A DNA stretch of 64,000 nucleotides from Sphingobacteriaceae bacterium (GTDB lineage: Bacteria > Bacteroidota > Bacteroidia > Sphingobacteriales > Sphingobacteriaceae), in contig CAHJWG010000001.1 in NCBI GenBank assembly GCA_903642215.1, positions 992,001 through 1,056,000 of the forward strand, read 5' to 3'. Each line of letters opens with the position of its first letter. Within the stretch, counting starts at the first letter, position 1. Below are positions 1-63,745 of this stretch, in pieces. Below the pieces are notes generated by a model that worked only from the letters and a program-made list of their open reading frames with translations, was not told the origin of the DNA and searched no databases. The translations under genes were made by a program, and so were the position numbers.

Positions 1-52
1 GCTACCATCAGGCAACGCGGGTTTTTCTATGCTAAAAGAAGCATCAGTTATT

Positions 53-3000
53 TTACACTTCCAAAGCTTCTAACTCCGGTTCTTCGATTTTTTCTTTTTT
101 GCCGAATAACCTGTTTTTCAAATTCACACGGATGATGTACATACACGGAACCAAGATTAACGTGATTACGGTTGCAAAACCTAAACCGAAGATCATGGTC
201 CAGGCCAACGGCCCCCAAAATGCAACGTTATCGCCGCCAAAGTGAATATGAGGTTCAAAATGGGTAAACAAGCCAACGAAGTCAATATTAAAACCTACAG
301 CCAAAGGTATTAAACCCATAATTGCGGCAGTTGCGGTTAGTAAAACCGGTGTCATCCGGGTGTGGCCGGCTTCTACAACGGCATCGTGCAAACTGGTGCC
401 CTGTTCTATCAGCATATCGGTAAATTCCACCAATAAAATCCCGTTCCGCACCACAACACCTGCTAATGCAATGATACCAACGCCCGTCATCACGATAGCC
501 ATCGTCATTCCGAAAATACTTACACCAAGCAATACGCCGATGATACTAAAGAAAATTTCGCTGATGATGATAAACGTTTTACCAATAGAATTAAACTGGA
601 TCATCAGAATGATTAAAATCAACCCGAAAGAAGTTGCCAAAGCACCGCCTAAAAAGGTAACGGCTTCTAATTGATCTTCCTGGCCGCCACCCTGGCGGAT
701 GATAATATCATCCGGTTTTTTGAAGTTATTGATTGCCCGTAAAATATTGGCATTAACATCATTTGCATTGTACGGTTTAATTACGCTGGAGCCTAAAGTT
801 AACACCCGGCGCTGTTGTTTACGTTTGATATTGCTGTAAGTATCGGTGTAACGGATATCGGTAAAAGCGGATAATGGCAATTGCCGTATTAAACCGCCAG
901 AACCCATATCACGGTAAGTAATTTTCATGTTCCTTAACTCGTCAATATTTCCGCGTTGGTTTTCCAATGCCCTAACTTTTATCTGATAGTCATCTTCTTT
1001 GGTATTCCTAAAATCACCGGCTTTGGCTCCGAACACAGCCGTACCCATTGCCTGGCTTATTTGTGAAGTGTTTATGCCCTCGCGGTTTGCCCTTTCCCGG
1101 TCGATATCAAATACAATTTCGGGTTTATCATTTTGCACGTCGGCAACCAAGTTTTCAATACCGGCTATATTTTGCTTAGCTAAATAGCTTTTTAAGCGAT
1201 TGCTGGTTTTAACCAATGAATCTAAATTATCACCGATTATTTCTATGCTGATATCTTTTTGTACCGGCGGACCGCTATTTTCCTGTGCTACGGAAATTTT
1301 TACACCCGGTATCCCTTGTACTGCATTACGGATTTCTGCTAAAACCTTTTTAGTATCCTTGCCGTTACGCTTACCAAATTCTACAAAAGCAACGGTTACT
1401 TTACCTTTATTTTCGTAATCGCCCTGGTCTTCATCTGTAGGATCTGTTACGCCTTTGGTAACGTTAGAGATGATGGACGAGATAATATCCTTATTTGGTT
1501 CAGCTACTTTGGCTACGCGCTGCTCTATTTTTTTCGTTATCTCATTTGTAGCAGCCTGATCTGTACCGATTGGCATCGTAATATAAACATAAGCAAAGTT
1601 TGGATCGCCCGAAGGGAAAAATTCCGGCGTTTTACCTCTGACAGCCGTTAATATGATAGCAAAAACAAACAGAACTAATGTACCTAACAACATAGTTACC
1701 GGCCGGCGTACCGCACGCTCCAGCCATTTGGCATACCATGCCTGGAAACGTGGCCAAACATTTTCCTGGAAACGATCAATCACGCTTAACAAAAAGAAGT
1801 GGTTGATCAGATACAGAATAATAATCACTACCATAAAATTACCGATACCAACATTGATCCAGTAACCAACAGCAGTGGCAATAGCCAGGTAAATAAGAGA
1901 ACGTTTGGTTGCTTTATCAAATTTAGGATGATTGTGTTCGCCTTTAAGGTGTGGTTTCATAAAATCAACCGCAAAAACAGGGTTCATAATATAAGCAACA
2001 ACGAGTGAAGCCAGCAACGTAATGATCAGCGTGATCGGCAGGAAAAACATAAAATGGCCGATCAAACTGTTCCAGAAAGCTAACGGAACAAATGGTGCCA
2101 GCGTAGTCATGGTACCAGAAAATACCGGTAAAAACACTTCGCCTGCTGCTGTTTTCGCTGCTTCTTTTATCGATACTTTTCCGTTATCAAAAATCCGGTG
2201 CGTATTTTCGATTACCACAATCGCATCATCAACTACAATTCCTAAAGCCAAAAGGAACGAAAACAACACGATCATGTTTAGTGTAAACCCAATCGCGGGC
2301 ATCACTAAAAAAGCAATAAAACAGGATAACGGAACGGATAACGCCACAAAAATAGCATTGGTGGTTCCCATAAAAAACATCAGGATCACGGTTACCAAGA
2401 TAAAACCAATGATAATGGTGTTGATTAAATCGTTAAGCGTGGTGCGGGTTTTATCGGATTGATCGCCGGTTACCGTGATATTCAAACCTTTTGGGAAAAC
2501 TGTTTTTTGCTTTAATTTAATCAGCTCATTAATTTTGTCTGACGCCTGAATCAGGTTTTCGCCGGCACGTTTACTTACGTTTAAGGTAATTACATTTTTA
2601 AATTTCGAGTTATCATTTGTTTTTAAACGCGCATAACTTTCCTGCTCTAAAAACGAATCTTTTATTTCGGCAATATCACGCAGGTAAACGGTTTGCCCTT
2701 TCGGGTTCCTAACGGCCATTGCGGCAACTTCATCTGCATTTTTAAAATCCTGTTTAATATCAATACTGCGCCGAACGCCATCTGTTTTAACAGTTCCGGC
2801 AGTTGTTAAAATATTTTCTGAACCGATTGCCTGGATAATATCATTAAAGCTGATTTGTGCAGAGGCCATTTTATTCAGGTCAACATTTACCTGGATTTCC
2901 GGCGTTAAGGCACCAACTTCGTCAACTTTAGATATTTCTTTGTAGCTTTCGATCTCATCTTTTAAAAGATCAGCGTATTCTTTCAGCCTTTTCAGGTTAT

Positions 3001-3490: not shown

Positions 3491-4591
3491 TTAACTTCCT
3501 TTTAAAACTTTTACTTTATCACCATCTTCCATGTCTTCCGCACCGGCAGTAATTAATTGATCACCTGATGCCAAACCTGATAAAATTTCTGACCGTCCGC
3601 CGTAAGTAGCTCCAACTTTAATATTCTTACGTTTAGCCGTACCGCTGTTGTTCACAAATACATAATCGCCATCTTCGGATTTCTGGATTGTTTTTACCGG
3701 GATAACAATTGCATTATGTTTAGAATAATCCGCAATTTTTAATATGGCTGTCATGTTAGGGCGAAGTGATTTACGCGCCGGTAATTTAATTTCGATGGCA
3801 AAACTACGTGAAGTAGGATCAATCGCTTTGGCTACAAAAGTTAACTTCGTGATTACAGAGTCGTTTGCATCCGGCACTAAAATTTTAACATTGTTACCTG
3901 TTCCTACACTGCCTGCGAACGATTCAGGAACGTCAGCCTTAACTTTTAGCACATCTGCATTTACGATACGGATACCTGTAATACCCGGCTGTGCAACCTG
4001 GCCAAGTTTTAAATCCATTTGATCGACCGTACCATTAATAGGAGAGGTAATGCGGAACATGCTTGCCTGCTCATGCAAAGCAGCAGCTTGTTTTTGGGCA
4101 CTTTGCAAATTGGTTTGTGCTTGCAGATATTGTACTTCGGTACCAATTTTTTGATCCCAAAGATTTTTTTGCCGCTGAAATAAAGTATTTAATAAACTTA
4201 CCTGCGATTGTGCCTGTGCGATGTTCTGCTTTAAAACACTGTTATCTAACTGCACAAGCACTTGCCCTTTTGATACATGCTGGCCAGCTCTTGCATTGAT
4301 GGCGATAATTGTTCCGGGAGATTGCGGATAAGCGGTAACATTGTCCTGCGCATCAATTTTTCCCTGAATCTGAACATAGTTTGTAAACGCACCCGGTTTA
4401 ATTTCCATCACGCTAACATCTGATGATTTGGTAGAATCAGTTCCGCCTGCTTCAGCCTGCAGTTTTGCAATTTTTGAGGTAGTTTCTGCCTGTTGCTTTT
4501 GTAAATCTGCCAGTTCGGCTTTTTTATCCTTTGGCTTATTAGAACATGCTGCTAAAAACAGTATGGCCGATAGATATAATAGTTTTTTCAT
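3491..4591 (-). CDS. RND efflux periplasmic adaptor (membrane fusion protein), lipoprotein
   Basis: Periplasmic adaptor linking the RND permease to the TolC-like channel. Residues 1-16 form a lipoprotein signal with lipobox LAAC, so Cys16 is probably lipidated. A short predicted coiled coil follows (residues about 22-48). Then comes a lipoyl-like half (AYPQSPGTIIAINARAGQHV), an alpha-helical hairpin rich in Q, L and A (about 110-175), the second lipoyl half, and a beta-barrel plus membrane-proximal domain. The length, 366 aa, is normal. It sits 28 nt after tolC and 21 nt before the permease, clearly one operon. Confidence 0.94.
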   Translation of the reverse strand: MKKLLYLSAILFLAACSNKPKDKKAELADLQKQQAETTSKIAKLQAEAGGTDSTKSSDVSVMEIKPGAFTNYVQIQGKIDAQDNVTAYPQSPGTIIAINARAGQHVSKGQVLVQLDNSVLKQNIAQAQSQVSLLNTLFQRQKNLWDQKIGTEVQYLQAQTNLQSAQKQAAALHEQASMFRITSPINGTVDQMDLKLGQVAQPGITGIRIVNADVLKVKADVPESFAGSVGTGNNVKILVPDANDSVITKLTFVAKAIDPTSRSFAIEIKLPARKSLRPNMTAILKIADYSKHNAIVIPVKTIQKSEDGDYVFVNNSGTAKRKNIKVGATYGGRSEILSGLASGDQLITAGAEDMEDGDKVKVLKGS

Positions 4592-6900: not shown

Positions 6901-6946
6901 GTGCTAAAAGAAGTAAGAATTATTTTACCCATGCTTCTTTTAGCAC
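6901..6946. terminator. Inverted pair of the dispersed word; hairpin after the ABC1 gene
   Basis: GTGCTAAAAGAAGTA (6901-6915) pairs with TGCTTCTTTTAGCAC (6932-6946): 14 of 15 positions match, plus one possible G-U, around a 16-nt loop. It lies 8 nt beyond the stop codon of the ABC1 kinase gene and upstream of tetR. The arms are two copies of the dispersed TAAAAGAAGYA word in inverted orientation. It probably works as a transcription terminator, though the T-tract is short. Confidence 0.55.
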
Positions 6947-6953: not shown

Positions 6954-8276
6954 TTAGTATTCAAGCAAAACGTGCGGACGGTAAGTATCCGTTTTAACTT
7001 CTGCTTTTAACTCGTGTAAAATATTGTACAAACCGAAATTGGTGCGGTTTACATAGATGAAATGCTTAACACCGCGCGCCTGCTTAAATTCCGGCATTTT
7101 AGCAATTTTTTCTCCGAAAGCATATAAGCGGTCAAAAAATTCTGTCTGACTAAAATCGAAACTATCCGTCATATAAGGTTTGGCAAACAAGCTGATCATC
7201 TCTTTATAAGCCTGATAATAAAACTCAATTTGCTGCGGATTATCTTTTGGCAAAATCATTTCCAGCTGCCGGAAAGCTTTAATTGTTTCTTCTTTATTTT
7301 GAAGCAAATCTGTAGAAGTTGTCGAGAAAAACGGATAATAAAAATCATCCGGCATTTCCTTAATACAGCCAAAATCAATTACACCCAGTTTCCCTTCCGG
7401 CGTAATCATAAAATTTCCCGGGTGAGGATCGGCATGTACGGCGCGTAATTCATGCTGCTGGAAATTGTAGAAATCCCACAAAGCCTGGCCAATCAAATTC
7501 CGTTCTTCCTGGCTTGGGTTGCTTTGCAGATATTCCTTTAAATGCTTGCCTTCCAACCAGCTCATCGTAATGATGCGTTTTTTAGAAAGCTCCGGATAAT
7601 AAGTTGGGAATACTACATTTTTCAAATCCTTGCAAGCCTGCGTAAATTCAATGGAACGGCGCACTTCCAGCTCATAATCTGTTTCTTCCAGCAAACGTTC
7701 TTCTACTTCACGCATGTAAATATCCAATTCCTTCTCGCTCATGCCCAAAAGCCGGAAAGCAAAAGGTTTTACCAGTTTTAAATCCGAAGAAATAGAATCG
7801 CCAACACCCGGATACTGAATTTTTACAGCCAGTTTTTCACCGTTTAATTCTGCTTCATGTACTTGTCCGATAGAAGCCGCGTTGGTAGATTTCAGATTAA
7901 ACTTATCATAAATCTGTTCCGGCGATTTTCCGAAATACTTTTTAAAAGTCTGCACAATCAGCGGACCGGAAAGCGGCGGCGCATTATACTGCGACTGTGA
8001 AAACTTATCTACATAAGCTGTCGGTAAAATATTCTTGTCCATACTCAGCATCTGCGCAACTTTTAGCGCGCTACCTTTCAATTCACTTAAAGATTCGTAA
8101 ATATCGGCCGCATTATCCTCGTTCAACTCATCCTTGTTCATATCCGGGTTGAATAGTTTTTTAGAATAATGCTTCACATAGTTGCCGCCAATCTTAAAAC
8201 CCGTTTTTACAAACTTGGCAGATCGCTGCACTTTGGATGTTGGTATGCTGTTTTGTTCTTTTCCTTGTTCGCTCAT
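6954..8276 (-). CDS. ABC1/AarF/UbiB-family atypical kinase-like protein
   Basis: Protein-kinase-like fold protein of the ABC1 family, 440 aa. Visible motifs: ALKVAQMLSMD (about residues 51-61), the KxGQ-type N-terminal motif with Ala for Gly; NAASIGQVHEAEL, the Ala-rich nucleotide loop; KLAVKIQYPG with the catalytic-type Lys; HADPHPGNFM; and GVIDFGC, equivalent to DFG. In other bacteria UbiB supports ubiquinone synthesis. Bacteroidota use menaquinone, so the role here is open. It follows a TetR-like gene and a small ORF on the same strand, within a photolyase-rich neighbourhood. The ATG overlaps the end of one copy of the dispersed word. Confidence 0.9.
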   Translation of the reverse strand: MSEQGKEQNSIPTSKVQRSAKFVKTGFKIGGNYVKHYSKKLFNPDMNKDELNEDNAADIYESLSELKGSALKVAQMLSMDKNILPTAYVDKFSQSQYNAPPLSGPLIVQTFKKYFGKSPEQIYDKFNLKSTNAASIGQVHEAELNGEKLAVKIQYPGVGDSISSDLKLVKPFAFRLLGMSEKELDIYMREVEERLLEETDYELEVRRSIEFTQACKDLKNVVFPTYYPELSKKRIITMSWLEGKHLKEYLQSNPSQEERNLIGQALWDFYNFQQHELRAVHADPHPGNFMITPEGKLGVIDFGCIKEMPDDFYYPFFSTTSTDLLQNKEETIKAFRQLEMILPKDNPQQIEFYYQAYKEMISLFAKPYMTDSFDFSQTEFFDRLYAFGEKIAKMPEFKQARGVKHFIYVNRTNFGLYNILHELKAEVKTDTYRPHVLLEY

Positions 8277-8399
8277 GCTTCTTTTATCGGTATAAAATTC
8301 TATTTTAGAGCGAGGAGGAGAGGAGCAAAGGGCGACAAATCAATTACCCTAACAAATGCCTCGCTATATATTTTTCCTTGTTTTTTGATCTTTTCTCTC

Positions 8400-8512
8400 A
8401 ATCTTCGCTCTTTCTCTTTTGGGCGTGCCCCTACGGGTCGGGCTATTCGTTGCAAGTCCTCGCTATGCTCCGGGCTTTCCACTGCTATCCCTCACGTACC
8501 TGCACTTACGCT
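8400..8512. repeat. GC-rich intergenic repeat-like segment
   Basis: This non-coding gap between the ABC1 gene and the small ORF contains GGGCGTGCCCCTACGGGTCG (from 8423), followed by GGGCTATTCGTTGCAAGTCC and CTCCGGGCTTTCCACT. Composition is much richer in G and C than the flanks, and several short self-complementary G/C blocks are present. From memory it resembles small dispersed intergenic repeats seen in Bacteroidota genomes; that is recollection, not a search. A 60-aa reading frame crosses it but looks spurious. Confidence 0.5.
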
Positions 8513-8776: not shown

Positions 8777-9430
8777 CTAAAACTTCATTTTCTCCTTAAA
8801 ACCGCCGTTTTTGACCAGGAATTTGCCGTAATCCAGCAAATTATCAACCGGCGAACGTTGGAATAAATCGAAAGTAACGTTTACACCTTTTTCAATCGCT
8901 TCGTCTGTTTTTTCGAAACCTTTGGATTCATCATTTACCCAAAAATTCAGGATAAATCCAAACTGAATCCACAACGCGTCTTTGTAACGGTTAGCTAAAA
9001 ATTTACGGTCGGCCAGTTCGCCGGTTTCAATGCCATCCTGTAAAATCTGTGCGCTAAAATTTTCAAATTCTTCCTTCAAACCGGCATAAATTTTTGGCGT
9101 ACCCATGCCTTTTGCAGCACGTTTACTACTATAAACCGCGAAGCTTCTTTTACCCTTTAATAATTCGAAAAAGCTGTAAAAAAACGATAAGCCTTTTTCG
9201 CGGGCAGAATATTGTGGCCAAACTTCCTGGGTTTTAATTTCGGCGATGGTTTTTAAAGTTAAATCGGTCCAGATGCTTTGCTCTACACCTTCAAAAGAAC
9301 CGAAATGCTGGTAAAATTCCTCTTCGGAAAACTCGTGTTTTTTGGCGAAAATGTAAACAGATTTTGGCTGCTCGCCTTCGGTCAGCACATAATCAATATA
9401 ATCGTTCTGGATTTTTTCTGTTGAAGCCAT
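8777..9430 (-). CDS. TetR-like regulator (C-terminal domain type)
   Basis: 217-aa helical protein. The first about 55 residues (IQNDYIDYVL, then FAKKHEFSEEEFYQHFGSFE) look like a divergent TetR HTH: the segment ending YQHFGS matches the last recognition helix. The rest is an all-helical C-terminal domain. It is upstream of the small ORF and the ABC1 gene on the same strand, a pairing I recall from other Bacteroidota. It may sense a ligand linked to the ABC1 protein, or act as a structural TetR-fold protein with weak DNA binding. Confidence 0.7.
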   Translation of the reverse strand: MASTEKIQNDYIDYVLTEGEQPKSVYIFAKKHEFSEEEFYQHFGSFEGVEQSIWTDLTLKTIAEIKTQEVWPQYSAREKGLSFFYSFFELLKGKRSFAVYSSKRAAKGMGTPKIYAGLKEEFENFSAQILQDGIETGELADRKFLANRYKDALWIQFGFILNFWVNDESKGFEKTDEAIEKGVNVTFDLFQRSPVDNLLDYGKFLVKNGGFKEKMKF

Positions 9431-9573
9431 GATTTTTATCAGATAAAATATTTATTATTTCCAGCATTAAATTACGGAATACTTTACAAAAACTGTATTC
9501 ATTGTAAAGGTTTGATGCTGTGCTGACAATTACTTCCATCAATAAAAAGAGTTGATAAAAGAAGTATCAGTAC

Positions 9574-10941: not shown

Positions 10942-11031
10942 GCTTCTTTTACGGCTAAATTGTTTGCAGTTATTCTGGTAACATAAGTTGCATTTGTTTG
11001 TTCAATTAAATCTTGCCGATGCAAATTATTT

Positions 11032-11237: not shown

Positions 11238-12689
11238 ATGAGCGGTAAAACGATTTTAGTTTGGTTTAGAAATGATTTGCGGGTGCAAGATAATGAAGTA
11301 TTAACGGAAGCGGTTAATAAGGCAGAATCTATCGTACCGGTATATTGTTTTGATCCTTTTTATTATCGGCATACTTCTTTTAACACCCAAAAAACCGGGA
11401 ATTTCCGGGCGCGTTTTATTAATGAATCGGTTACTGATCTGCGGCTTTCACTACAAAACCTGGGTGGGAATTTAATTATTCGTACCGGTGACCCTGCTGT
11501 AATTATCCCGGAGCTTGCGCAGCAATATCAGGTTTCCGAAGTTTATCATCACCGTGAAGTTGCTTTTGAGGAAACAGACATTTCTACAAAAGTTGAAGCA
11601 GCTCTGTGGAAATTAAAGCTAAACCTAAAGCATTTCATCGGCCATACGCTTTATAATAAAGAAGATTTGCCGTTCCCGATTAAAGATATTCCGGATGCTT
11701 TTGCCACTTTCCGCAAAAAAGTAGAACGAGACAGTGAGGTTCGCCGTTGTGCCATTTCTCCCGCAAAAATTACCACACCGGAAATTACGGATGCCGGCGA
11801 AATCCCGACACTGGAAGAACTCGGTTTAACAGAACCTTTTGATGATGAACGTGCTGTGATACGCTTTATCGGCGGCGAAACGGAAGGTTTAAAAAGGTTA
11901 AATAATTTTGCCGGAGACGGAAATCAGGATAAAACATTAAAAACAGCTAACAGTACTTTAGGAGCTGATTTTGCTAACACGATGTCGGTTTGGTTATCCA
12001 TGGGCTGTATTTCCCCGCGGCAAATTTACCGGCAAGTGCAGCAATACGAAAAAACGCAGGGCGGCAACGCGCTAACCCATGCCATCGTGCTGGAATTACT
12101 TTGGCGCGACTATTATCGTTTTATGTTTAAAAAACACGGTGATCAGTTTTTTCAGAAAGAAGGATTTAAAGGTGAAGCTCCGCCGGAAGCTGCTAACCAG
12201 GATGAACTGCTGGAAAAATGGAAAGCCGGACAAACCGGTGTGCCTTTTGTTGATGCTATTATGCACGAAATTAAGGCAACCGGTTATACCAGTATCCGCG
12301 GGCGATATATTGCAGCCAGCTTTTTAGTACGGGATTTAAAGGTAAACTGGACTTGCGGCGCGGCTTATTTTGAAGAAAAACTGATCGATTACAGTCCCGC
12401 AACGAACTGGGGAAACTGGGCATCCGTTGCCGGCGTGGGCAATGATCCGAAGGAAAACCGTTCTGTTAATATTATCAAACAAGCCGTTGAGGCCGACCCG
12501 AAAGGGCAATATATAAAGCTTTGGATGCCCGAATTAAACGCCATCCCCGGAAAACAAATCCACACGCCGTTTTTCCTGACGGAAGCAGAATTATCCGTCT
12601 TTAATATAAAACTTGGCCGCGATTACCCAAAGCTGATCATCGAACCAAAATGGCAAAAGCTGGCGGATAATAATGCAAGTATTTTTTAG
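11238..12689 (+). CDS. Cryptochrome DASH (photolyase/cryptochrome family)
   Basis: 483-aa flavoprotein of the DASH clade. The N-terminal Rossmann domain has KTILVWFRNDLRVQDNEVL, DPFYYRHTSFNTQKTGNFR and FINESVTDLRLSLQNLGG. The C-terminal FAD domain has WRDYYRFMFKKHG, GATNWGNWASVAGVGNDP-type residues (ATNWGNWASVAGVGNDPKEN) and GQYIKLWMPEL, all hallmarks of DASH proteins. Members repair cyclobutane dimers in single-stranded DNA and may signal blue light. The length is normal. It is followed at 159 nt by a second photolyase gene, with an inverted repeat between. Confidence 0.94.
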   Translation: MSGKTILVWFRNDLRVQDNEVLTEAVNKAESIVPVYCFDPFYYRHTSFNTQKTGNFRARFINESVTDLRLSLQNLGGNLIIRTGDPAVIIPELAQQYQVSEVYHHREVAFEETDISTKVEAALWKLKLNLKHFIGHTLYNKEDLPFPIKDIPDAFATFRKKVERDSEVRRCAISPAKITTPEITDAGEIPTLEELGLTEPFDDERAVIRFIGGETEGLKRLNNFAGDGNQDKTLKTANSTLGADFANTMSVWLSMGCISPRQIYRQVQQYEKTQGGNALTHAIVLELLWRDYYRFMFKKHGDQFFQKEGFKGEAPPEAANQDELLEKWKAGQTGVPFVDAIMHEIKATGYTSIRGRYIAASFLVRDLKVNWTCGAAYFEEKLIDYSPATNWGNWASVAGVGNDPKENRSVNIIKQAVEADPKGQYIKLWMPELNAIPGKQIHTPFFLTEAELSVFNIKLGRDYPKLIIEPKWQKLADNNASIF

Positions 12690-12792: not shown

Positions 12793-12848
12793 CAGCTAAT
12801 CGCTGACAACTTCCTCAAACCAATGCTTCTTTTATCGGTTAAAAATTG

Positions 12849-14381: not shown

Positions 14382-14654
14382 GAGGAGGCGGTCAGCTAAT
14401 TGGCTGTAAGCTATCAGATTTCGGCCAAATGAGTTTTTTGGGTAATAAACGAAGCATCAGCAGTCCACATATCAGCTTAAAACATAACACCAATTTTTGC
14501 ACGATAAAAGAAGTATCAATAATTTTCCGTTTATTCCCGATTGCCATAGCCGATTGCTAAGAGCTGATTACTAAGAGATTAATTAAGCCACAAAAACCGG
14601 TATGTTTATTTTTTAAATTCTTACTTTTGTTGCGTTTCACTGATTGGATTTTCC
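14382..14654. other. Non-coding gap with repeat-like strings before sucA
   Basis: There is no gene here. It holds GCTGATTACTAAGAG and AGCTAATTGGCTGTAAGC strings related to the inverted repeat at 12709-12792. It also holds an exact copy of the dispersed word (14503-14517) and a degenerate copy (TAAACGAAGCATC, about 14446-14458). The last 60 nt include the putative sucA promoter. Confidence 0.5.
14622..14629 (+). promoter_or_regulatory. Putative sucAB promoter -7 element
   Basis: TACTTTTG matches the Bacteroidota -7 consensus TAnnTTTG and lies 25 nt before the sucA ATG. No clear TTTG -33 element is seen at the expected distance, so support is partial. Confidence 0.4.
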
Positions 14655-19122: not shown

Positions 19123-19235
19123 GATGCTTCTTTTACAAGCCTAAATTTAAGCTTTCAGTTAAATTACTTTATCAGGATTATTCCCTTAATAATTATTTAT
19201 AATTGTTAAATTGAAACCCTCAAACCTAAATTAAA

Positions 19236-20921: not shown

Positions 20922-20952
20922 GCGATACTTCTTTTATCGGTATAAATTCTTT

Positions 20953-22462: not shown

Positions 22463-22531
22463 ATCGTACACACATAGGGAAATTAAATATTTCGCTTCAC
22501 ATAATTTATATCGATAAAAGAAGCATTAATC

Positions 22532-32203: not shown

Positions 32204-32217
32204 ATCACCTAAAATTC

Positions 32218-41306: not shown

Positions 41307-41419
41307 TTAATATCGGGGGCGAAGATAGCTGATCTGCCGGTTTTACGTGCGGGTTGTGTTTAAATGTCAAACGTCTTCGCACAAAATGTATATTTTTGAA
41401 AAAAATTATTTATACGGAA

Positions 41420-42400: not shown

Positions 42401-42537
42401 TTTATATACACAACTTTTTTTGCGGTAAAAGAAGCATTTTCAAAACATATGATCTTAAAAAGTGCTGTATATATGTTCAAAAATGTAATTTTTTACTTTA
42501 TTTAGAATGTTTATAAATTGGTTTTAACAGTCATCAC

Positions 42538-52145: not shown

Positions 52146-54038
52146 ATGGAAACAGCGTTAATAGTTAATAATTCAGCATCAGTTCATAGACAAGAAGTTA
52201 ATGGCCATGACGAACATCATCATCACGAGACATTTCTGACTAAATATGTATTTAGTCAGGATCATAAAATGATTGCAAAGCAATTCTTAATAACCGGTAT
52301 TATTATGGGCGTAATTGCAATGATTTTATCTGTTTTATTTCGAATTCAATTAGCATATCCTAACACAGCATTTCCATTCTTGCAAACGCTATTAGGCCGT
52401 TTTGCTCCGGAAGGTCGTTTAGATCCAAATTTTTATCTTTCGTTAGTTACGATACATGGTACTATAATGGTATTTTTTGTATTGACAGCAGGATTAAGCG
52501 GTACTTTTAGTAATTTGTTAATTCCATTGCAATTAGGTGCAAGAGATATGGCCTCACCATTTTTAAACATGCTTTCTTATTGGTTTTTCTTTACAGCATG
52601 TGTAATTATGTTGAGTTCATTTTTTGTACAAAAGGGTCCTGCCAGTGGTGGCTGGACTATATATCCACCTCTTTCCGCATTGCCTAAAGCTATGCCAGGT
52701 TCTGAAATGGGCATGTCATTATGGTTAGCAAGCATGGTTCTATTTGTAGCTTCTCAGTTAATGGGTGGTATTAATTACATTAGTACAGTGTTGAATATGC
52801 GTACTAAAGGAATGGATTTGTGGAAGATGCCTTTAACAATTTGGGGTTTCTTTTTAACTGCAATTTTAGGAGTGTTATCTTTTCCTGTTTTAGTAGCAGG
52901 TGTAGTGTTATTGGTATTTGATAGGAGTATGGGAACAAGTTTCTACCTTTCAGATATTGTTTTAAATGGTGCAGTTTTACCAAACGAAGGTGGCAGTCCG
53001 ATTTTATTTGAACATTTATTTTGGTTTCTGGGTCACCCTGAAGTTTACATTGTAATAATGCCGGCTATGGGTATTGCTTCAGAAGTAATGGCGGTTAATT
53101 CACGTAAACCAATATTTGGTTATCACGCAATGGTTTATTCTTTAATTGGGATTACTGTATTATCGTTTATTGTATGGGGTCACCATATGTTTGTAACGGG
53201 AATGAATCCATTTATTGGAGGCGTTTTCATGATTACTACATTAATTATTGCAGTTCCTTCAGCCGTAAAAACTTTTAACTGGCTTGCTACATTATGGAGA
53301 GGTAATATCCGTTTTACACCAGCAATGATGTTTGCAATCGGTTTGGTTTCTTTCTTCATTTCCGGAGGTTTAACAGGAATCTTTTTAGGTAATGCAGCTT
53401 TAGATATTAATTTACATGATACTTATTTTGTAGTAGCTCACTTTCACTTAGTGATGGGTTCAGCGGCAATTTTTGGTATGCTTGCAGGTGTATATCACTG
53501 GTTCCCAAAAATGTTTGGCAGATTGATGGATGAAAAATTAGGTTATTTGCATTTTTGGTTAACTTTTATTGGTGCTTACTTGGTTTTCTTCCCGATGCAC
53601 TTTATGGGATTAGATGGAGTTCCGCGTAGATATTATGCCTTTACAGAATTTGAATCAATGAAGCAATGGTTATCTGTAAATACTTTTATTACTTGGGCTG
53701 CAATTATGTCGGCCTTGGCACAGGTTGCATTTTTATTCAACTTCTTTTACTCTATCTTTTATGGTAAAAAAGCAACTCAAAATCCTTGGAATGCCAATAC
53801 TTTAGAATGGACAACTCCTGTAGAACGTATCCATGGAAATTGGCCGGGAGAAATCCCAACTGTTTATCGTTGGTCTTATGATTATAGTAAGCCCGGTCAC
53901 GACCAGGATTTTATTCCTCAAACTGTACCATTTTCACAAACGATGACTTCGAATTTACCTCACGATTTTGAGGATGATCCTGATGTAGAAAAACTACAAA
54001 CAGAATGGTTAAAACAAAATTCTCAGGAAGTAAAGTAA
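52146..54038 (+). CDS. ctaD: Cytochrome c oxidase subunit I (heme-copper oxidase, A1-type)
   Basis: 630-aa catalytic subunit, about 13 transmembrane helices. FLGHPEVYIVIMPAMGI contains the CuB His, the cross-linked Tyr and the A-family Glu. WGHHMFVTGMNPF has the other CuB His ligands, and HDTYFVVAHFHLVMG has heme a and heme a3 ligands. ATIHGTIMVFFVLTAG-type residues (LVTIHGTIMVFFVLTAGLS) hold the other heme a His. It reduces oxygen to water and pumps protons. It is followed by a terminator. Confidence 0.97.
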   Translation: METALIVNNSASVHRQEVNGHDEHHHHETFLTKYVFSQDHKMIAKQFLITGIIMGVIAMILSVLFRIQLAYPNTAFPFLQTLLGRFAPEGRLDPNFYLSLVTIHGTIMVFFVLTAGLSGTFSNLLIPLQLGARDMASPFLNMLSYWFFFTACVIMLSSFFVQKGPASGGWTIYPPLSALPKAMPGSEMGMSLWLASMVLFVASQLMGGINYISTVLNMRTKGMDLWKMPLTIWGFFLTAILGVLSFPVLVAGVVLLVFDRSMGTSFYLSDIVLNGAVLPNEGGSPILFEHLFWFLGHPEVYIVIMPAMGIASEVMAVNSRKPIFGYHAMVYSLIGITVLSFIVWGHHMFVTGMNPFIGGVFMITTLIIAVPSAVKTFNWLATLWRGNIRFTPAMMFAIGLVSFFISGGLTGIFLGNAALDINLHDTYFVVAHFHLVMGSAAIFGMLAGVYHWFPKMFGRLMDEKLGYLHFWLTFIGAYLVFFPMHFMGLDGVPRRYYAFTEFESMKQWLSVNTFITWAAIMSALAQVAFLFNFFYSIFYGKKATQNPWNANTLEWTTPVERIHGNWPGEIPTVYRWSYDYSKPGHDQDFIPQTVPFSQTMTSNLPHDFEDDPDVEKLQTEWLKQNSQEVK

Positions 54039-54123: not shown

Positions 54124-55206
54124 TTGAAGTATTCAAATCCGGCAGAAAAGTTTCAATCAGTTAGCTTGTTGTCTGTAATTGCACTTTTTGTATTGATTTT
54201 GGCCGGGGGCGTTGTAAGAAGTACCGGTTCTGGTATGGGTTGCCCGGATTGGCCAAAGTGCTTTGGTAAGTATATTCCACCGGTAAAAGAAGCACAGCTT
54301 CCTGCAAACTATCGTACCGATTATGCAGAACGGCAGCTAAAAAAAAACATTCGTTTTGCAAAAGTTTTGGATATCATGGGATATACATCTTTAGCAAATA
54401 AAATAAAATTTAATACTTTAGTAACAAACCGGCAGCAGGAAGAATTTAATGCAGCAAAAACCTGGACGGAATATATTAATAGGTTAATTGGAGCCATAAC
54501 CGGATTACTACTCTTATTATCTGCTGTATACTCCTTTTACTACTGGAAAATCAGCAAACAAATTATAGTTTTAAGCTTCGTAAATCTTTTTTTAGTTGGA
54601 TTTCAAGCTTGGATCGGTTCTATTGTAGTTTCTTCAAACTTAGTTCCCTGGATTGTAACAGTACACATGTTATTAGCTTTAGCTATTTTAGCTATTAGTA
54701 TTTACACCTGGCATAAGGCTCAGATTTTAAATACAGGTAAAGGCTCAAAACCTAATCAAATATGGACAACCGTCTTATGTTTTTTCGCACTTGCTCTAGA
54801 TGTTATACAAATTGCCATCGGAACGGAAGTTAGAGAGAAAATTGATGAATATGCTGCAAAGTTAAAAGGAAATTTTAGGCAGGAATGGGTTATTGGTGCC
54901 GAAAAAGTATTGTTAAATCACAAGAACTTAGCACTACTGGTAATTGTAATTAATGTAACATTATTTATGCTGATTAGAAAATCTTTTGTAAAAAGCTCAG
55001 TTCAACAACAATTGATGAGTACAAGTTTTATAATAATTATGTTCCAGGTTTTTGTAGGAGTTGTTTTGGCATATTTAGGTTTACCGCCCGTAGCGCAGAT
55101 AATTCATCTTTTTTTAGCCAGTTTATTATTTGGGACACAATTTTATTTATTGCTAAACCTATTTCGGTCAGCAGAAACGTCAGGAGCGAAGTATGGCCTG
55201 GAGTGA
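54124..55206 (+). CDS. ctaA: Heme A synthase
   Basis: 360-aa membrane protein of the COX15/CtaA family, which oxidises heme O to heme A. GGVVRSTGSGMGCPDWPKCF near the N terminus is diagnostic. EYINRLIGAITGLLLLLSAV and WIVTVHMLLALAILAISIY carry heme His ligands, and the second four-helix half ends LPPVAQIIHLFLASLLFGTQ. The start codon is probably the TTG at 54124; no ATG gives a plausible N terminus. It overlaps ctaB by 14 nt. Confidence 0.95.
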   Translation: MKYSNPAEKFQSVSLLSVIALFVLILAGGVVRSTGSGMGCPDWPKCFGKYIPPVKEAQLPANYRTDYAERQLKKNIRFAKVLDIMGYTSLANKIKFNTLVTNRQQEEFNAAKTWTEYINRLIGAITGLLLLLSAVYSFYYWKISKQIIVLSFVNLFLVGFQAWIGSIVVSSNLVPWIVTVHMLLALAILAISIYTWHKAQILNTGKGSKPNQIWTTVLCFFALALDVIQIAIGTEVREKIDEYAAKLKGNFRQEWVIGAEKVLLNHKNLALLVIVINVTLFMLIRKSFVKSSVQQQLMSTSFIIIMFQVFVGVVLAYLGLPPVAQIIHLFLASLLFGTQFYLLLNLFRSAETSGAKYGLE

Positions 55207-56050
55207 TTTTTCTAAGCTGATTAAACTTCGACTTACTTTTTTAGTTGTTTTTTCTGCCTCCATATCCTTTTTAATAGGAAGTAAAGTTAACGGAGAAATT
55301 ATTTGGAAAAACTGGGGATTGCTTATTCTGGGTGGATTCTTAGTAACTGCAGCAGCAAATGGGTTTAATGAAATTATTGAAAAAGATTTAGACAAATTGA
55401 TGCGCCGCACTGCGGAGAGGCCTTTGCCCTCTGGTAAAATGACCAATGGGCAAGCTTTAGTGTTAAGTCTTTTTATGGGGATTGCCGGTACTTATATTTT
55501 AGGCAGTTTAAATTTAACAACAGGATATTTGGCCGTATTTTCAATTTTCTTGTATGCCTTTATTTATACGCCGGCTAAAAGAAAATCACCTGTTGCTGTT
55601 TTTATCGGTGCAATTCCCGGAGCACTTCCGCCGTTAATCGGATATGTTGCAGCACATGAAAAGATAGATTACATTGCTTTAATTTTATTCGTAATTCAGT
55701 TTGTATGGCAGTTCCCACATTTTTGGGCAATTGCCTGGGTATTGGATGACGATTACAAGCTCGCTGGTTTCCGTTTATTGCCTACCGGAAAACGAGATGC
55801 TACCAGTGCAGCTATCACATTTCTTTTTACTTTAATTTTAGTTCCTGTAAGCCTACTGCCAACATATTACAGTTTTGGTGGTTTGTACATAGGTGGCATA
55901 TCCTTGTTGAGCAGCTTTGCGTTTTTATATTACGCATTTAACATGTTGTTAAAACAAGATATAAACTCGGCACAAAAACTAATGTATTGCTCCTTTATTT
56001 ACCTGCCCGTAGTACAGTTAGGATTATTATTTGATTTTATTGGAAAGTGA
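55193..56050 (+). CDS. ctaB: Protoheme IX farnesyltransferase (heme O synthase)
   Basis: 285-aa UbiA-family prenyltransferase. The first Asp-rich-type motif is NGFNEIIEKDLDKLMRRTAE with RPLPSG, and the second region is FVWQFPHFWAIAWVLDDDYK. YTPAKRKSPVAVFIGAIPGA is a family signature. It makes heme O for CtaA. A sister-word copy (GTTGCTGTTTTTATCGG, near 55592) lies inside the coding sequence. Confidence 0.95.
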   Translation: MAWSDFSKLIKLRLTFLVVFSASISFLIGSKVNGEIIWKNWGLLILGGFLVTAAANGFNEIIEKDLDKLMRRTAERPLPSGKMTNGQALVLSLFMGIAGTYILGSLNLTTGYLAVFSIFLYAFIYTPAKRKSPVAVFIGAIPGALPPLIGYVAAHEKIDYIALILFVIQFVWQFPHFWAIAWVLDDDYKLAGFRLLPTGKRDATSAAITFLFTLILVPVSLLPTYYSFGGLYIGGISLLSSFAFLYYAFNMLLKQDINSAQKLMYCSFIYLPVVQLGLLFDFIGK

Positions 56051-58412: not shown

Positions 58413-59005
58413 TGGAACCACATACAAACCTTGTACAAGACAAGCTGATTTTTCGCCTGATAATTGGAATTTCCGTATTTGTATTTGCGGTAGTTGTAAT
58501 TTTGATCCTGAAAGTGCTTCCGGTTCCTGCTGTTTTACCATCGTTTACTTACAAATTACCTTTAATAAATGCTTATTTAAACGGAACCTGTAGCATCCTG
58601 CTTCTTTTATCGCTATATTTTATCAAGCGGAAAAATATAGTAATGCACAAAAGAATCAATATTACTGCTTTTGCCCTGTCTGCTTTGTTCCTTATTTTTT
58701 ATATAGTTTTCCATTATTTTGCACCGGAAACACGTTTCGGGGATTTAGACGGAAATCATTTAGTTTCGCCAACAGAAGCCGAAGCGGTAGGAAACCTCCG
58801 TTACGTCTATTTTGTAATTCTGATCACACACATTGTTCTGGCTGCAATTGTTTTACCACTAATTCTGTTTAGCTTTAGTTTTGCCTTGAGAAATCAAATC
58901 GAAAAGCACAAAAAAATTGTTCGCTGGACGTGGCCCATCTGGTTTTATGTAACCGTAACGGGCGTTGTAGTTTATATAATGATTTCGCCTTATTACCAAT
59001 TTTAG
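58412..59005 (+). CDS. DUF420 membrane protein
   Basis: 197-aa protein with about five transmembrane helices, starting at ATG 58412, which overlaps the sco stop codon. LINAYLNGTCSILLLLSLYF, MHKRINITAFALSALFLIFY and LVSPTEAEAVGNLRYVYFVI-like blocks (GNLRYVYFVILITHIVLAAI) with several His match DUF420, found beside SCO in oxidase loci. A role in copper or heme delivery to the oxidase is assumed from context. A dispersed-word variant lies at 58598. Confidence 0.87.
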   Translation: MEPHTNLVQDKLIFRLIIGISVFVFAVVVILILKVLPVPAVLPSFTYKLPLINAYLNGTCSILLLLSLYFIKRKNIVMHKRINITAFALSALFLIFYIVFHYFAPETRFGDLDGNHLVSPTEAEAVGNLRYVYFVILITHIVLAAIVLPLILFSFSFALRNQIEKHKKIVRWTWPIWFYVTVTGVVVYIMISPYYQF

Positions 59006-59071: not shown

Positions 59072-59350
59072 ATGAAAAATATTAAAAAAATGCTTGCAAG
59101 TTTAGCGGTATTGCTGATGCTGTTTTTAAGCACACAAAACCTGCACGCACAATGTGCCATGTGTGCTGCAAATGCAGAAACTTCTCATAACAGCGGTAAT
59201 ACAAAGGCAGATGGTTTAAATAAAGGTATTTTAGTTTTGCTGGCTGCACCATATTTGGCAGCTGCTGTGGTTGGATATATTTGGTATAAAAGGTTTCGCC
59301 GTAAAAATGTGGAGTTGAACATGCGCAACGAAAAGCTTAATTTAAATTAA
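59072..59350 (+). CDS. Small secreted/membrane protein with CAMCAAN motif
   Basis: 92-aa protein starting at ATG 59072, which gives a clean signal peptide (residues 1-27, ending NLHAQ); an in-frame start 57 nt upstream lacks support. The mature part starts CAMCAANAETSHNSG (CxxC), then one transmembrane segment (ILVLLAAPYLAAAVVGYIW) and a basic tail. I recall such proteins at the end of Bacteroidota oxidase loci, but know no function. Its stop codon overlaps a dispersed-word variant. Confidence 0.75.
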   Translation: MKNIKKMLASLAVLLMLFLSTQNLHAQCAMCAANAETSHNSGNTKADGLNKGILVLLAAPYLAAAVVGYIWYKRFRRKNVELNMRNEKLNLN

Positions 59351-59389
59351 GCTTCTTTTAGTAATCAATCCTGCTATTTATTTTAGAAG

Positions 59390-60049
59390 ATGATTAAAGC
59401 TGAAACTTTTGATTTTTTAAACAAGCTGGTCGAGAATAATAACCGCGATTGGTTTTTAGATCATAAAGAATTATACGAAGCAGCCAGGGAAAATGCAATT
59501 GATTTTGCACAACAGGTTCTTCAGGCTTTAACAAAAATAGACAAGCAGGTTGATGCGGATATTGATCCGAAAAAATGCGTAATGCGTATTTATCGTGATG
59601 TCCGTTTCAGTAAAGATAAAACGCCTTATAAAAATAATTTCGGGATCAACTTTAAAACCGGAAACGGAATTGCCGAATTAGGTTATTATATCCATATTCA
59701 ACCCGGAAAATCTTTTGCCGGAGGCGGTTACTGGATGCCGCCCGCAGAACATTTAAAAGCGATACGGCAGGAAATAGATTATAACGGTGCCGCGCTGAAT
59801 AAAATCATCACTAATGCTTCTTTTACCGATGATTTTTCTGCATTCGATCAGCAGGAACAACTTAAAAATAATCCAAAAGGATACGAAGCCGATCATCAGT
59901 TTATCAACTTATTAAAGCTGAAAAGTTTTGCAGCCATGCACTCTTTATCCAACCAAGAATTAACGGATAAAGGAGCCGTTCAAAATATCGTTGAATATTT
60001 TACGAAAATCCATCCGTTAAATAATTTTTTAAACCAGGCAATCAGTTAA
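59390..60049 (+). CDS. DUF2461-family protein
   Basis: 219-aa cytoplasmic protein. It begins TFDFLNKLVENNNRDWFLDH, with MRIYRDVRFSKDKTPYKNNF and YYIHIQPGKSFAGGGYWMPP, the defining blocks of DUF2461, a conserved family without assigned function. It is a single gene after the oxidase block. A dispersed-word variant lies at 59813. Confidence 0.9.
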   Translation: MIKAETFDFLNKLVENNNRDWFLDHKELYEAARENAIDFAQQVLQALTKIDKQVDADIDPKKCVMRIYRDVRFSKDKTPYKNNFGINFKTGNGIAELGYYIHIQPGKSFAGGGYWMPPAEHLKAIRQEIDYNGAALNKIITNASFTDDFSAFDQQEQLKNNPKGYEADHQFINLLKLKSFAAMHSLSNQELTDKGAVQNIVEYFTKIHPLNNFLNQAIS

Positions 60050-60148
60050 TTACTGAATGATTAAAAGAAGTGTTTCCTATCATCTTATCCAAATAAGTTT
60101 ATTTCCCAAAAGTGATCCTTAAAAATTACCGATAAAAGAAGTATCAGC

Positions 60149-60907
60149 ATGAAAACTTACGCCATCATTTCTGATATTCATGGAAACTTGCTTGCGCTGG
60201 AAGCAGTTTTAAAAGATATCGCATCACGAAGTGTTGATACGATTATCAACTTAGGTGATCATGTTTTTGGTCCGTTAGAACCGCAAAAAACAGCAGATTT
60301 AATTTTTAGTCGGGAAATAATTTGTATCAGCGGAAATAAAGATCGGGATATTTTAGAAAATTTGGATCGGATTACGCAGGATGCAACGCTTGAACAAGTC
60401 AAAAAAAACATTGATAAAAGAAGCATCGATTGGTTAAAAAGCCTTCCTTCAACTCAAATAATAGACGAACTTATTTTTGCCTGCCACGGTACGCCGGAAA
60501 GCGATAATGAATATTTGCTGGAAGAGGTTACCGGAAATGGTGTTTTTGTTTTTAAGGATGAAGAATTGATTGCAAAAACAAATCACATTAAAGAACAGAT
60601 TATTTTGTGCGGACATTCGCATGTAAACCGTGTAATCCGGCTTTCTAACGGAAAGCTGATTTTAAATCCGGGAAGTGTTGGTTTGCCTGCATATTTGGGA
60701 AATGCCCAAGTGCGTTTTGCAATGGAATCGATGACACCGTATGCCAAATATGCTTTAATTTATGCCGATAAAAACAGTATCAAAATTGAACAGGTAAATT
60801 GTCCTTACGATTGGAACGCAGCCTCTGCAACAGCCAGAAAAAACGGGAGAGAAGATTGGGCACAAGGTTTATTGTATGGCCGTATGCCCAAATCTTTAAA
60901 AAGTTAA
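60149..60907 (+). CDS. Metallophosphoesterase
   Basis: 252-aa calcineurin-like phosphoesterase. Metal-binding motifs in order: ISDIHGN (residues 7-13), NLGDHVFGP, SGNKD, HGTPESD, and GHSHVNR with LNPGSVGLP. This resembles YfcE-type and other small bacterial phosphodiesterases; substrate unknown. It carries one exact dispersed word upstream (60131-60145, 3 nt before ATG), one inside (60413-60427), and one sister word (60767-60781). Confidence 0.92.
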   Translation: MKTYAIISDIHGNLLALEAVLKDIASRSVDTIINLGDHVFGPLEPQKTADLIFSREIICISGNKDRDILENLDRITQDATLEQVKKNIDKRSIDWLKSLPSTQIIDELIFACHGTPESDNEYLLEEVTGNGVFVFKDEELIAKTNHIKEQIILCGHSHVNRVIRLSNGKLILNPGSVGLPAYLGNAQVRFAMESMTPYAKYALIYADKNSIKIEQVNCPYDWNAASATARKNGREDWAQGLLYGRMPKSLKS

Positions 60908-61786: not shown

Positions 61787-63589
61787 TCAGGAACCCGGAA
61801 GCTGATCGCCTCGTAAAGCCCTGAATTTTTTACGTGCCTCGCTAATCCACAAGCTGGAAGGGTAATCCGTAATAATTTTTTGATACAGCGTTTGTGCCTT
61901 GGCATTATTGTTTAAATGGTTAGCATATAAATCAGCCATCATAAAAATGGCATCATCGGCCCAAAGTTCTGTTGGATGTTCATCAACAATTTTTTGCAGC
62001 GGAAGGATTGCATCTGCATACTGTTTTTGCTGGATAAAAATTCGTGCTTTAGCCATTAAAATATCATCAGCGAGCGAATTGCCCGGATAAACACGGTTAA
62101 TGCTATCCAGCGTAATCATCGCACGATCAGTTTGTTCTTTATAAATCAGGAAATCTGCCCGTGCATACATTTTAAGCGCATTTCCGGTAGAATCAAAAGC
62201 CGTATTATCAGTAATCAGGAGCGAAAGATTTAAAGCATCGTTAGCAATTAACTGGGAAGTTGCTGCTTTTAAAATGAATAATTGTGCTTTAGCGTAATTA
62301 AAATCGCCTGTAAAATAAGCCAAACGAGCATTACGATATTTTGCTTCCTGCGCAATATTTGTATTTGGGAAAGCATATTCTACCTGGCTGTACAACAAAG
62401 TTGCTTCCCAAGGTTGATTATTCAGCAGATAAACATCGCCTAAATCCATTTTACAATCTGCCAATAAATTTGGGCGAATACCCTGAATTAAAACAGCTTG
62501 CTCTAATAATTTTTCGGCTTCTATAGTTTTATGCAATTTAAAAGCCTGTAACCTTGCCAATTTTTGCATGGCAAAAGCAGTATTGCTGTTTCGGCCAAAT
62601 TCGGTTAATAAATCCTGGTAATCTTTTTCAAGGCCGGTTAAATCCTGTTGCTTGTATTTACCCGAAGTAACCTTTAAATTTTTTGTGTTGAGCAGTTCAA
62701 TTCTCGAAGGAATATAATACTCTTGTTCTTTTCCTTTTGTAATGATAAAATCGTAACCACGGATAGCCGTATCGTAAGCTTCGTTACCAACGAAAGTTTG
62801 GCACAGCTGGAAAACCTGTTCCCCGTTGTCTTTTTGCCTTTTCGACAGTGCGATAACCTGGTTTAATGCCAAATCATAATCTTTTTGCTGTAGATATTGC
62901 CAGGTTAATAATTGTGTAAATACGATAGCCTGCGGATTTTTCTGAATTTTATCCAGCAGCAAACTTCTAAAAGAATCATAATCTACCGGCCCTTCAAACT
63001 GACTGGCAATATTGTTTTGGGCCTGGTACAAATAGTCGGGATTGGCCGTAAGGATGTTTAAATATTCTGCTGCCATCTGCAATTTTTCTCTCCGGAAACG
63101 GTACATACTTACCAAGGGAATCGAAAACAATTGCTCGTTATGCAAAATTGCCCGGCCTTGTAAAAAAACTTTGATGGTATACTCTGTATTTCCGGCCTGG
63201 TAAAACTGGTTGGCAATGGTACTGATTTGCGCTTCGTCTGCCGGTAAATTGCGCAGTATTTCTTTATAAACAGTTTCTGCTTTTGGCGTATCGCCTTTTT
63301 CGGTATAAATACTGCCTAATGTAATAGCGTAATCCACATTTTCGGGATGCTTTTTAGCCATTTTTTTAGTCAGGTTTTCGGCTTCGTCCAGTTTTTTTAA
63401 ACTAACCAAACTATTGCAGTAAGCTTTAAAATAAGCTTCGTTATCCTGCTTAAACAGCTTTTGATAAATCTGGCTGGCTTTATCTTTTTCGCCGGAAGCA
63501 GCGTATTGCCTTGCCAGCAGCAAATCATCAGACTGTGCAGCAGCAGTTAAAAAGCAACCTAAAAAAATGACCGATAAAAACAGCTTCAT
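61787..63589 (-). CDS. Exported tetratricopeptide-repeat protein
   Basis: About 600-aa TPR protein with a signal peptide (residues 1-19, MKLFLSVIFLGCFLTAAAQ). ATG at 63589 is chosen; a TTG three codons upstream only lengthens the N terminus. Repeats run through the length, for example ARQYAASGEKDKASQIYQKL, VDYAITLGSIYTEKGDTPKA and ADDAIFMMADLYANHLNNNA. It probably scaffolds periplasmic or outer-membrane partners; none identified. First gene of TPR-DUF4286-rfbC. Confidence 0.88.
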   Translation of the reverse strand: MKLFLSVIFLGCFLTAAAQSDDLLLARQYAASGEKDKASQIYQKLFKQDNEAYFKAYCNSLVSLKKLDEAENLTKKMAKKHPENVDYAITLGSIYTEKGDTPKAETVYKEILRNLPADEAQISTIANQFYQAGNTEYTIKVFLQGRAILHNEQLFSIPLVSMYRFRREKLQMAAEYLNILTANPDYLYQAQNNIASQFEGPVDYDSFRSLLLDKIQKNPQAIVFTQLLTWQYLQQKDYDLALNQVIALSKRQKDNGEQVFQLCQTFVGNEAYDTAIRGYDFIITKGKEQEYYIPSRIELLNTKNLKVTSGKYKQQDLTGLEKDYQDLLTEFGRNSNTAFAMQKLARLQAFKLHKTIEAEKLLEQAVLIQGIRPNLLADCKMDLGDVYLLNNQPWEATLLYSQVEYAFPNTNIAQEAKYRNARLAYFTGDFNYAKAQLFILKAATSQLIANDALNLSLLITDNTAFDSTGNALKMYARADFLIYKEQTDRAMITLDSINRVYPGNSLADDILMAKARIFIQQKQYADAILPLQKIVDEHPTELWADDAIFMMADLYANHLNNNAKAQTLYQKIITDYPSSLWISEARKKFRALRGDQLPGS

Positions 63590-63745
63590 ACAACTCAAAA
63601 ATAAACTTTTTTACTACTTAAAAGAAGCTGTATCGATTCGGGCCAAAGCATCAGGGGGTAAAATTGTGGTGACACATAATCTAATCATGACTTAATTCCT
63701 AATTTAACCGTATCAATTAAAAATAATATTGCTTTACGATCCGGA

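Follow-up and report, generated by a model that had tools for sequence, protein, structure and literature searches.

The 64,000-nucleotide window analysed here (G000:C1:992001-1056000, from a 3.84 Mb assembly of 68 contigs that is 92% complete) carries genes for, among others, an efflux pump, a photolyase, a 2-oxoacid dehydrogenase E2, a TonB receptor and a phosphoglucose isomerase. Within and between its genes lies a short dispersed word, W1, which contains the 9-mer TAAAAGAAG, together with a second word, W2 (TAAAAACAG), which differs from W1 by an internal change of GA to AC (Table 1). The genus was sampled with three genomes, our own (G000) and two others (G001 and G002). OGDH identity is 71-76% to the nearest named relatives among the 80 loci listed, Mucilaginibacter, Daejeonella and Pedobacter, whose family we take to be the Sphingobacteriaceae.

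Abundance and structure of the words

In the window, TAAAAGAAG occurs 41 times, and 1.6 copies are expected under a second-order Markov model, in agreement with the initial annotation, made from the letters alone, which had estimated about 40 copies where one or two would be expected. The degenerate form AAAAGAAGY occurs 50 times (shuffles: mean 3.1, maximum 7), and all seven exact copies of the 15-mer GATAAAAGAAGYATC that had been reported are present, with none in 100 dinucleotide shuffles. Copies lie in both orientations, between genes and inside genes in several reading frames, as had been described. A genome-wide count, which had been proposed as a check, gave 268 exact 15-mers in G000 (129/139 on the two strands), far above the reversed-pattern control, which gave 0; copies are thus present outside the window.

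The W1 12-mer is found in 175 exact copies, and its 33 single-substitution variants add up to 156, of which 59 differ at the last base. Variant counting in 464 kb of our own DNA exposed W2, the form TAAAAACAGYAT of which occurs 108 times versus 1.2 expected, and the idea of a single word was dropped. W2 is present 19 times in the window, and the density of both words together is 0.82, 0.82 and 1.06 words per kb in samples of the three species.

An information profile was made from 151 intergenic copies of AAAAGAAG in the same 464 kb. It shows an A/T tract, AAWTTTWW, at positions -14 to -7, followed by GSYGAT, the core and YATY; beyond about -19 to +11 the flanks contribute little, and the signals past the motif are weak, the largest being at -19. 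The profile of 204 genic copies is the same, although weaker. In the orientation written here, the tract is placed 5' of the core at a distance of about one helical turn; read on the other strand, it comes 3' of the core. W2 has the same tract and flanks, so that one bipartite motif is common to both words. Over 810 kb of our own DNA, the internal dinucleotide is GA in 325 cases, AC in 188, AA in 35 and GC in 16, with every other at most 12; since the intermediates AA and GC are rare beside GA and AC, W1 and W2 are separate peaks. The word that was initially annotated is therefore real, but its second form and the A/T tract had been missed.

Distribution of the words among genomes

The 15-mer count of 268 in G000 is accompanied by 407 and 306 copies in the other two genus genomes, and by 0-1 copies in 57 other genomes. 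The three genus genomes contain 887, 1439 and 1646 copies of the 13-mer TAAAAGAAGCATY (strands 414/473, 699/740 and 820/826), which occurs 0-9 times elsewhere in the family (198 genomes from 24 other genera), where the reversed control reaches up to 7. W2 counts are 604, 525 and 620 in the genus and at most 17 in 117 other genomes. A search for dialects within the family found GATAAAANNAGYATC in 437-524 copies per genus genome and in 0-6 copies in each of 118 other genomes. Across the phylum (395 genomes), the 15-mer is present in 1-2 copies in 25 genomes besides G000 and in none of the others. At least 120 stretches of viral contigs contain it, with one match in each of the 80 stretches listed, which was taken as background. 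The words are restricted to one genus, as far as three genomes show.

In the 68 of the listed OGDH loci that exceed 12 kb (13.6-22.9 kb each, a small part of each genome), a screen of 9-mers did not reveal a dispersed word with the density of W1. A word had more copies in L072 and in L086, but these were clustered in tandem arrays; a dispersed but sparser word was seen in L023 (described below).

Maintenance and exchange at orthologous sites

Part of our own contig C1 and contig C2 were aligned with those parts of the two relatives that had been retrieved, giving 175.6 kb of alignment with G001 (78.5% identity) and 52.7 kb with G002 (78.4%); blocks of up to 300 columns or overlapping a better block were dropped, and sites that crossed a gene boundary were not counted. 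For these counts and for those of placement, spacing, enrichment and pairs, genes were the greedy longest open reading frames (ORFs) of at least 80 codons, taken without a trained predictor.

W1 was retained at 75 of 98 sites in G001 and 25 of 34 in G002, and W2 at 38 of 61 and 14 of 18, respectively, compared with 14-17% for all 9-mers and 22-25% for anagrams of the words. W1 ranked first in retention among the 138 nine-mers (strand pairs counted twice) that occurred 25 or more times in the comparison with G001. The initial annotation had suggested a comparison with related genomes for copies maintained at orthologous sites, and such copies were found: the 159 sites compared with G001 comprise 113 kept, 7 swapped for the other word, 30 with 1-5 mismatches and 9 gapped. 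Genic copies were retained as well (W1 44/57, W2 31/50 in G001), and most coding copies align gaplessly, only 3 of 107 genic sites being gapped; around intergenic copies the flanks have often diverged, with the word and tract persisting.

Exchange between W1 and W2 takes two adjacent changes and was seen at 7 of the 159 sites in G001, where all other double changes total 7, and at 4 of 52 in G002. These represent nine distinct sites, because two (window 8278 and 13121) are common to both comparisons. At 13121, our own protein reads KIIGKNSIEQ (W2), and W1 in both relatives gives KRS for KNS; here the protein changed while a word was kept.

Placement, spacing and pairing

Intergenic enrichment of W1 was 10.4, 7.2, 15.2, 11.6, 14.6 and 10.6 fold in six contigs and 110 fold in a seventh, aC12; that of W2 was 1.1-3.9 fold, with only 1.1 fold in bC20. 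In 464 kb, 30 W1 12-mers were found in 7.95 kb of convergent gaps versus 11 in 11.6 kb of divergent gaps, and intergenic copies did not clearly favour one orientation. Genic words occupy several frames in both senses and encode peptides such as VKEA, IKTA, DKNS, DKRS, NASF, DAVF and ILFL. Strand counts are balanced when summed over contigs that are unoriented with respect to the origin, a sum in which a strand bias along the replichore, as in polar chromosome signals of the Chi or FtsK-orienting polar sequence (KOPS) type, may be masked. In 460 kb of one genome, counts per 10 kb were under-dispersed (index 0.54 vs 0.88 simulated, P=0.0135), and the coefficient of variation of the gaps was 0.82 vs 0.93 simulated (P=0.0065).

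Close inverted pairs that could form hairpins comprise 20 in which the reverse complement precedes the word at a spacing of 5-9 nt and 21 in the opposite order at 10-19 nt. The two pairs initially annotated, at 6901-6946 and 32167-32203, are real, and their hairpins fold at -19.4 to -21.9 kcal/mol (both strands).

A polysaccharide-utilisation island in G001 (G001:C12:200001-300000, L343-L347) has a composition of its own. Here 80 of 86 W1 copies are intergenic, 22 outward-facing pairs lie 55-80 bp apart, W2 has only 5 copies, and there are 9 genic words in 100 kb. The TTTTTAGGTGA-type sequence is an extra flank of 26 of 82 W1-C copies in the island and of 0-11 among 10-156 per contig elsewhere. 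The 8 proteins scanned include products of polysaccharide-utilisation genes (SusC-like, SusD, sulfatase and chondroitinase B). A recent gain of word-poor genes together with the spread of a word-bearing repeat would fit this composition. The idea that outward pairs spaced at about 65 bp form the main unit of the system was rejected; since such pairs are only about twice as frequent as background outside the island, we treat them as secondary.

Candidate DNA-uptake genes

ComEC was found in all three genus genomes and in 39 of the 41 genomes searched. Directly upstream of comEC (L273:17384-19429; G000:C2:72387-74429) lies the gene for a 681-residue HHH_3-like protein with a signal-like N terminus. 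Against a cut-off of 27 bits, its HHH_3-like region scores 13.3 bits in our own protein, which is too low, whereas two orthologues pass with 30.3 and 29.1 bits. The C-terminal part is strand-rich with an aromatic end and is putatively an outer-membrane barrel. Orthologues are present in 37 of 41 genomes, and a search of NCBIfam returned no family for this HHH/barrel protein. By coordinate comparison, its gene adjoins comEC in all 21 family genomes that have both, and in none of the 15 genomes with both outside the family. On the basis of these sequence features, the HHH/barrel protein is a candidate DNA-uptake channel; because it is not specific to the genus, it cannot alone explain genus-specific words.

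Interpretation of the words

Our findings suggest that W1 and W2 are probably uptake-type recognition sequences, forming an uptake-sequence-like system without type IV pili. We hold an uptake-like function most likely because the signature of the uptake signal sequences (USS) of Pasteurellaceae and the DNA uptake sequences (DUS) of Neisseriaceae is matched, and because transformation by genes unlike known pilus components is on record for Riemerella. The suggestion of an uptake-like system in Bacteroidota, made in the initial annotation, is well supported by the distribution of the words and their maintenance across species, with uptake itself presumed. A putative receptor on the cell exterior or in the outer membrane would bind AAWTTTWW-GSYGATAAAA(GA or AC)AGYATY and favour the uptake of DNA from the same genus. 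Copies would be created and preserved by point mutation together with biased recombination of the DNA taken up, as a consequence of which they would pile up wherever the genome tolerates them. We infer that the genus takes up DNA and does so with a bias for the words, that the HHH/barrel protein would be the route through the outer membrane, and that both words would be read by a single receptor or by a pair of them. More tentatively, and as a possibility that we would not call probable, sequence-specific uptake independent of type IV pili may be bilingual, with the GA and AC words equivalent and entry through the HHH/barrel protein beside comEC, and word-driven exchange may have rewritten coding DNA, including amino-acid changes that kept a word.

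Several observations weigh against uptake-type recognition. The expectation of competence genes held for ComEC but not for the pilus: the type II/IV pilus ATPase family PF00437 exceeded the cut-off in 0 of 3 genus genomes and 8 of 41 overall, in a search that did not extend to pilins and secretin. All 14 control genomes matched this family, 13 of them over the cut-off, and fragments below the threshold were seen in G000 and G001 (19.9 and 22.9 bits). The Riemerella component DUF5689 was found in 0 of 3 genus genomes, and the barrel neighbouring it, searched with a profile built on the proteins next to DUF5689 in G038, G057 and G058 without the Riemerella sequence, gave only weak partial matches in the genus (best E 1.6e-8, positions 3-175 of 909). 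Genic copies lean to the sense strand (121 vs 86; W1 61/43, W2 60/43), the largest word-free gap of 8.4 kb is no smaller than in simulations (P=0.55), and 39 of the 159 sites are lost in G001. An uptake model does not predict the outward pairs spaced at about 65 bp that abound in one G001 island, and the restriction to the genus is based on three genomes.

The main rival is that the words are sites for an intracellular, genus-specific DNA-binding protein acting in the nucleoid, replication or repair, and selected site by site, which we regard as unlikely; a binding word for a nucleoid or repair protein had also been offered in the initial annotation. The core with its A/T tract resembles a bent protein site, the spacing is more even than random, maintenance in place is strong, and outward pairs cluster near 65 bp. 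Strand balance across the genome argues against such sites, the sense lean of genic copies being mild. So do a density near one copy per kb and an excess of exact over singly substituted copies, which are unlike relaxed intracellular sites according to an argument in the available part of PMC1626085. Two interchangeable exact words with rare intermediates are also hard to reconcile with one ordinary site. An excerpt of PMC1939737 describes uptake sequences as less even than expected for compaction sites, a standard that was not applied to W1 and W2.

An origin of the words as the termini or remains of a copying element, such as a miniature inverted-repeat transposable element (MITE) or a repetitive extragenic palindromic (REP)-like repeat, appears improbable. 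The G001 island, with its intergenic W1, outward pairs and shared flank, is what such an element could leave, and some pairs lie within a visible repeat family. In the sample from our own genome, however, flanks are not conserved beyond the motif, and the TTTTTAGGTGA-type flank is rare outside the island; coding copies are mostly gapless in relatives, and exchange occurs in place by substitution. Derivation of all copies from a single mobile element with conserved flanks, an alternative raised at the outset, is therefore not what is seen, the one island in a sister species being the exception.

Transcription terminators or other signals at the RNA level are a very improbable explanation of the words as a whole. 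Inverted pairs do fold well, and convergent gaps are richer than divergent ones, but only part of the copies belong to hairpin-type pairs; many are single, stand in either gene orientation or occur in coding DNA of both senses, and genic copies are maintained. Termination can be a secondary use of the words. Codon or amino-acid usage or base composition has next to no probability, since, even though sense frame 1 yields common peptides such as VKEA and IKEV, enrichment peaks between genes, the reversed control gives 0, relatives in the family are without the words, and several frames in both senses are used.

Comparison with known uptake systems

According to the part of PMC1626085 available to us, USS and DUS have in common a dense, strand-balanced and regular distribution that favours non-coding DNA, together with inverted pairs and a strong consensus. 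The USS of Pasteurellaceae, for example Haemophilus influenzae, resemble W1 and W2 in having a short core with an A-then-T tract, about one copy per kb, no orientation bias, regular spacing, a preference for non-coding DNA and close inverted pairs (PMC1626085, same part). They differ in that the Pasteurellaceae core is AAGTGCGGT or ACAAGCGGT with two AT tracts, whereas the words described here have an unrelated core and one clear tract, come as two words per genome in another phylum, occur without a type II/IV pilus ATPase over the cut-off, and would confer an uptake bias that is presumed. The consensus is also less extreme than that source describes for USS and DUS.

With DUS the words share thousands of exact copies, lineage-specific dialects and inverted pairs; in contrast to the words with their A/T tract, DUS are without a flanking motif in the account of PMC1626085 that we could consult. 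Simonsiella muelleri has two DUS dialects in one genome that are one base apart (PMC3630211, in part), whereas W1 and W2 are two adjacent bases apart with rare intermediates. Known USS and DUS systems are based on type IV pili. As the search gave no pilus ATPase over the cut-off here and uptake is presumed, we do not class W1 and W2 as USS or DUS, and with no pilus motor found a ComP-type pilin receptor would not be expected. The statement that exactly the mix of Haemophilus and Neisseria is seen thus applies to the distribution but neither to the machine, no PilB/PilT-type ATPase being over the cut-off in the three genus genomes, nor to the two interchangeable words.

Within Bacteroidota, Riemerella shows ComEC-based natural transformation with genes that lack homology to known pilus components (PMC8459023, consulted in excerpt), and own-DNA preference is reported for R. 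columbina (PMC7965970, likewise). Our genus resembles Riemerella in phylum and in the presence of ComEC, and differs in that no clear homologues of DUF5689 and its adjacent barrel were found. According to the available text of PMC1626085 (2006), the only two families then known to have uptake sequences were Pasteurellaceae and Neisseriaceae, which both belong to the Pseudomonadota. In the open-licence part of PubMed Central, as far as the texts were available, the only candidate uptake words for Bacteroidota are A-rich 10-mers such as AAAAATAAAA in a k-mer table of PMC7965970, the function of which was untested there.

If uptake-type recognition is the correct interpretation, and the words arose independently in another phylum and without pilus motors, biased uptake would be shown to lead to such words by convergence, and they would not be a peculiarity of pilins. 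It would also give a handle on how DNA crosses the outer membrane in Bacteroidota and point to word-bearing DNA as a possible transformation tool for the genus, and the two-word state would be a natural test of how uptake dialects change.

Word positions in the window and minor observations

Table 1. Copies of W1 and W2 in the window
Position	Strand	Word and context
33-41	+	W1
2161-2169	-	W1, efflux-pump gene
4553-4561	+	W2
6905-6913	+	W1, hairpin pair with 6934-6942
6934-6942	-	W1, hairpin pair with 6905-6913
8278-8286	-	W1, one base 5' of ATG of ORF 6954-8276; W2 in G001/G002 orthologues
9144-9152	-	W1, genic
9556-9564	+	W1 inside 15-mer 9554-9568
10943-10951	-	W1
11374-11382	-	W1, photolyase gene
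11938-11946	+	W2
12826-12834	-	W1
13121-13129	+	W2, DPRP gene; W1 in both relatives
14171-14179	-	W2
14505-14513	+	W1 inside 15-mer 14503-14517
17764-17772	+	W1, 2-oxoacid dehydrogenase E2 gene
18100-18108	+	W1 inside 15-mer 18098-18112
19127-19135	-	W1
20065-20073	+	W2
20928-20936	-	W1 inside 15-mer 20924-20938
22515-22523	+	W1
23975-23983	-	W1, SIS/CBS gene
24683-24691	+	W1 inside 15-mer 24681-24695
26795-26803	-	W1
26900-26908	+	W2
27408-27416	-	W2, hairpin pair with 27423-27431 (reverse complement, 6 nt, word), -24.6 kcal/mol
27423-27431	+	W2, hairpin pair with 27408-27416
29935-29943	-	W1, TonB receptor gene
30554-30562	-	W1
32001-32009	+	W1
32167-32175	+	Core copy AAAAGAAGC, not a full W1 because an A precedes it; hairpin pair with 32196-32204
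32196-32204	-	W1, hairpin pair with 32167-32175
33633-33641	-	W1, phosphoglucose isomerase gene
34024-34032	-	W2
35197-35205	-	W2
38046-38054	+	W2 9-mer without YA extension
39552-39560	+	W1
40175-40183	-	W1
40856-40864	+	W2
41197-41205	-	W1
41286-41294	+	W2
42426-42434	+	W1
44559-44567	-	W1
45585-45593	+	W2
45846-45854	+	W1 9-mer without YA extension
47871-47879	-	W1 9-mer
48327-48335	-	W2
48990-48998	+	W1
53741-53749	-	W1 9-mer
54284-54292	+	W1
55596-55604	-	W2
58601-58609	-	W1
59120-59128	-	W2
59352-59360	-	W1 9-mer
59817-59825	-	W1
60062-60070	+	W1 9-mer
60133-60141	+	W1 inside 15-mer 60131-60145
60415-60423	+	W1 inside 15-mer 60413-60427
60769-60777	+	W2
63575-63583	+	W2
63619-63627	+	W1 9-mer

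Other repeated sequences were seen in the same genomes. The words CCGAAACAAGTTC and GAGAAATCTTCTTT occur about 10-13 times each in G000:C1:592001-1056000 and are likely separate repeat families. At window 8396-8504, a stretch of about 80-110 bp has copies of 70-93% identity at several other places in G001 and G002, representing a longer dispersed repeat. Overlapping 12-mers from a unit like TGTGATTTGCTTTCATTCTTTGAATTACTGATATTTAACCC recur about 122-125 times in G001:C67 (L235-L245), probably a very long array of clustered regularly interspaced short palindromic repeats (CRISPR) in the sister species.

Outside the family, TGGGGGGAT occurs 7 times in 22.7 kb of L023 (Flavobacteriales MAG-14), dispersed over both strands, versus 0.07 expected, and is possibly another lineage-specific word. 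In two Flavobacteriaceae (L034 and L037), AATACGTAG occurs 6 times versus about 0.15 expected, and some of these copies form close inverted pairs inside a stretch of about 5 kb. Finally, the window encodes at 41354-42400 a protein of the deoxyhypusine synthase family (PF01916), here in a bacterium.

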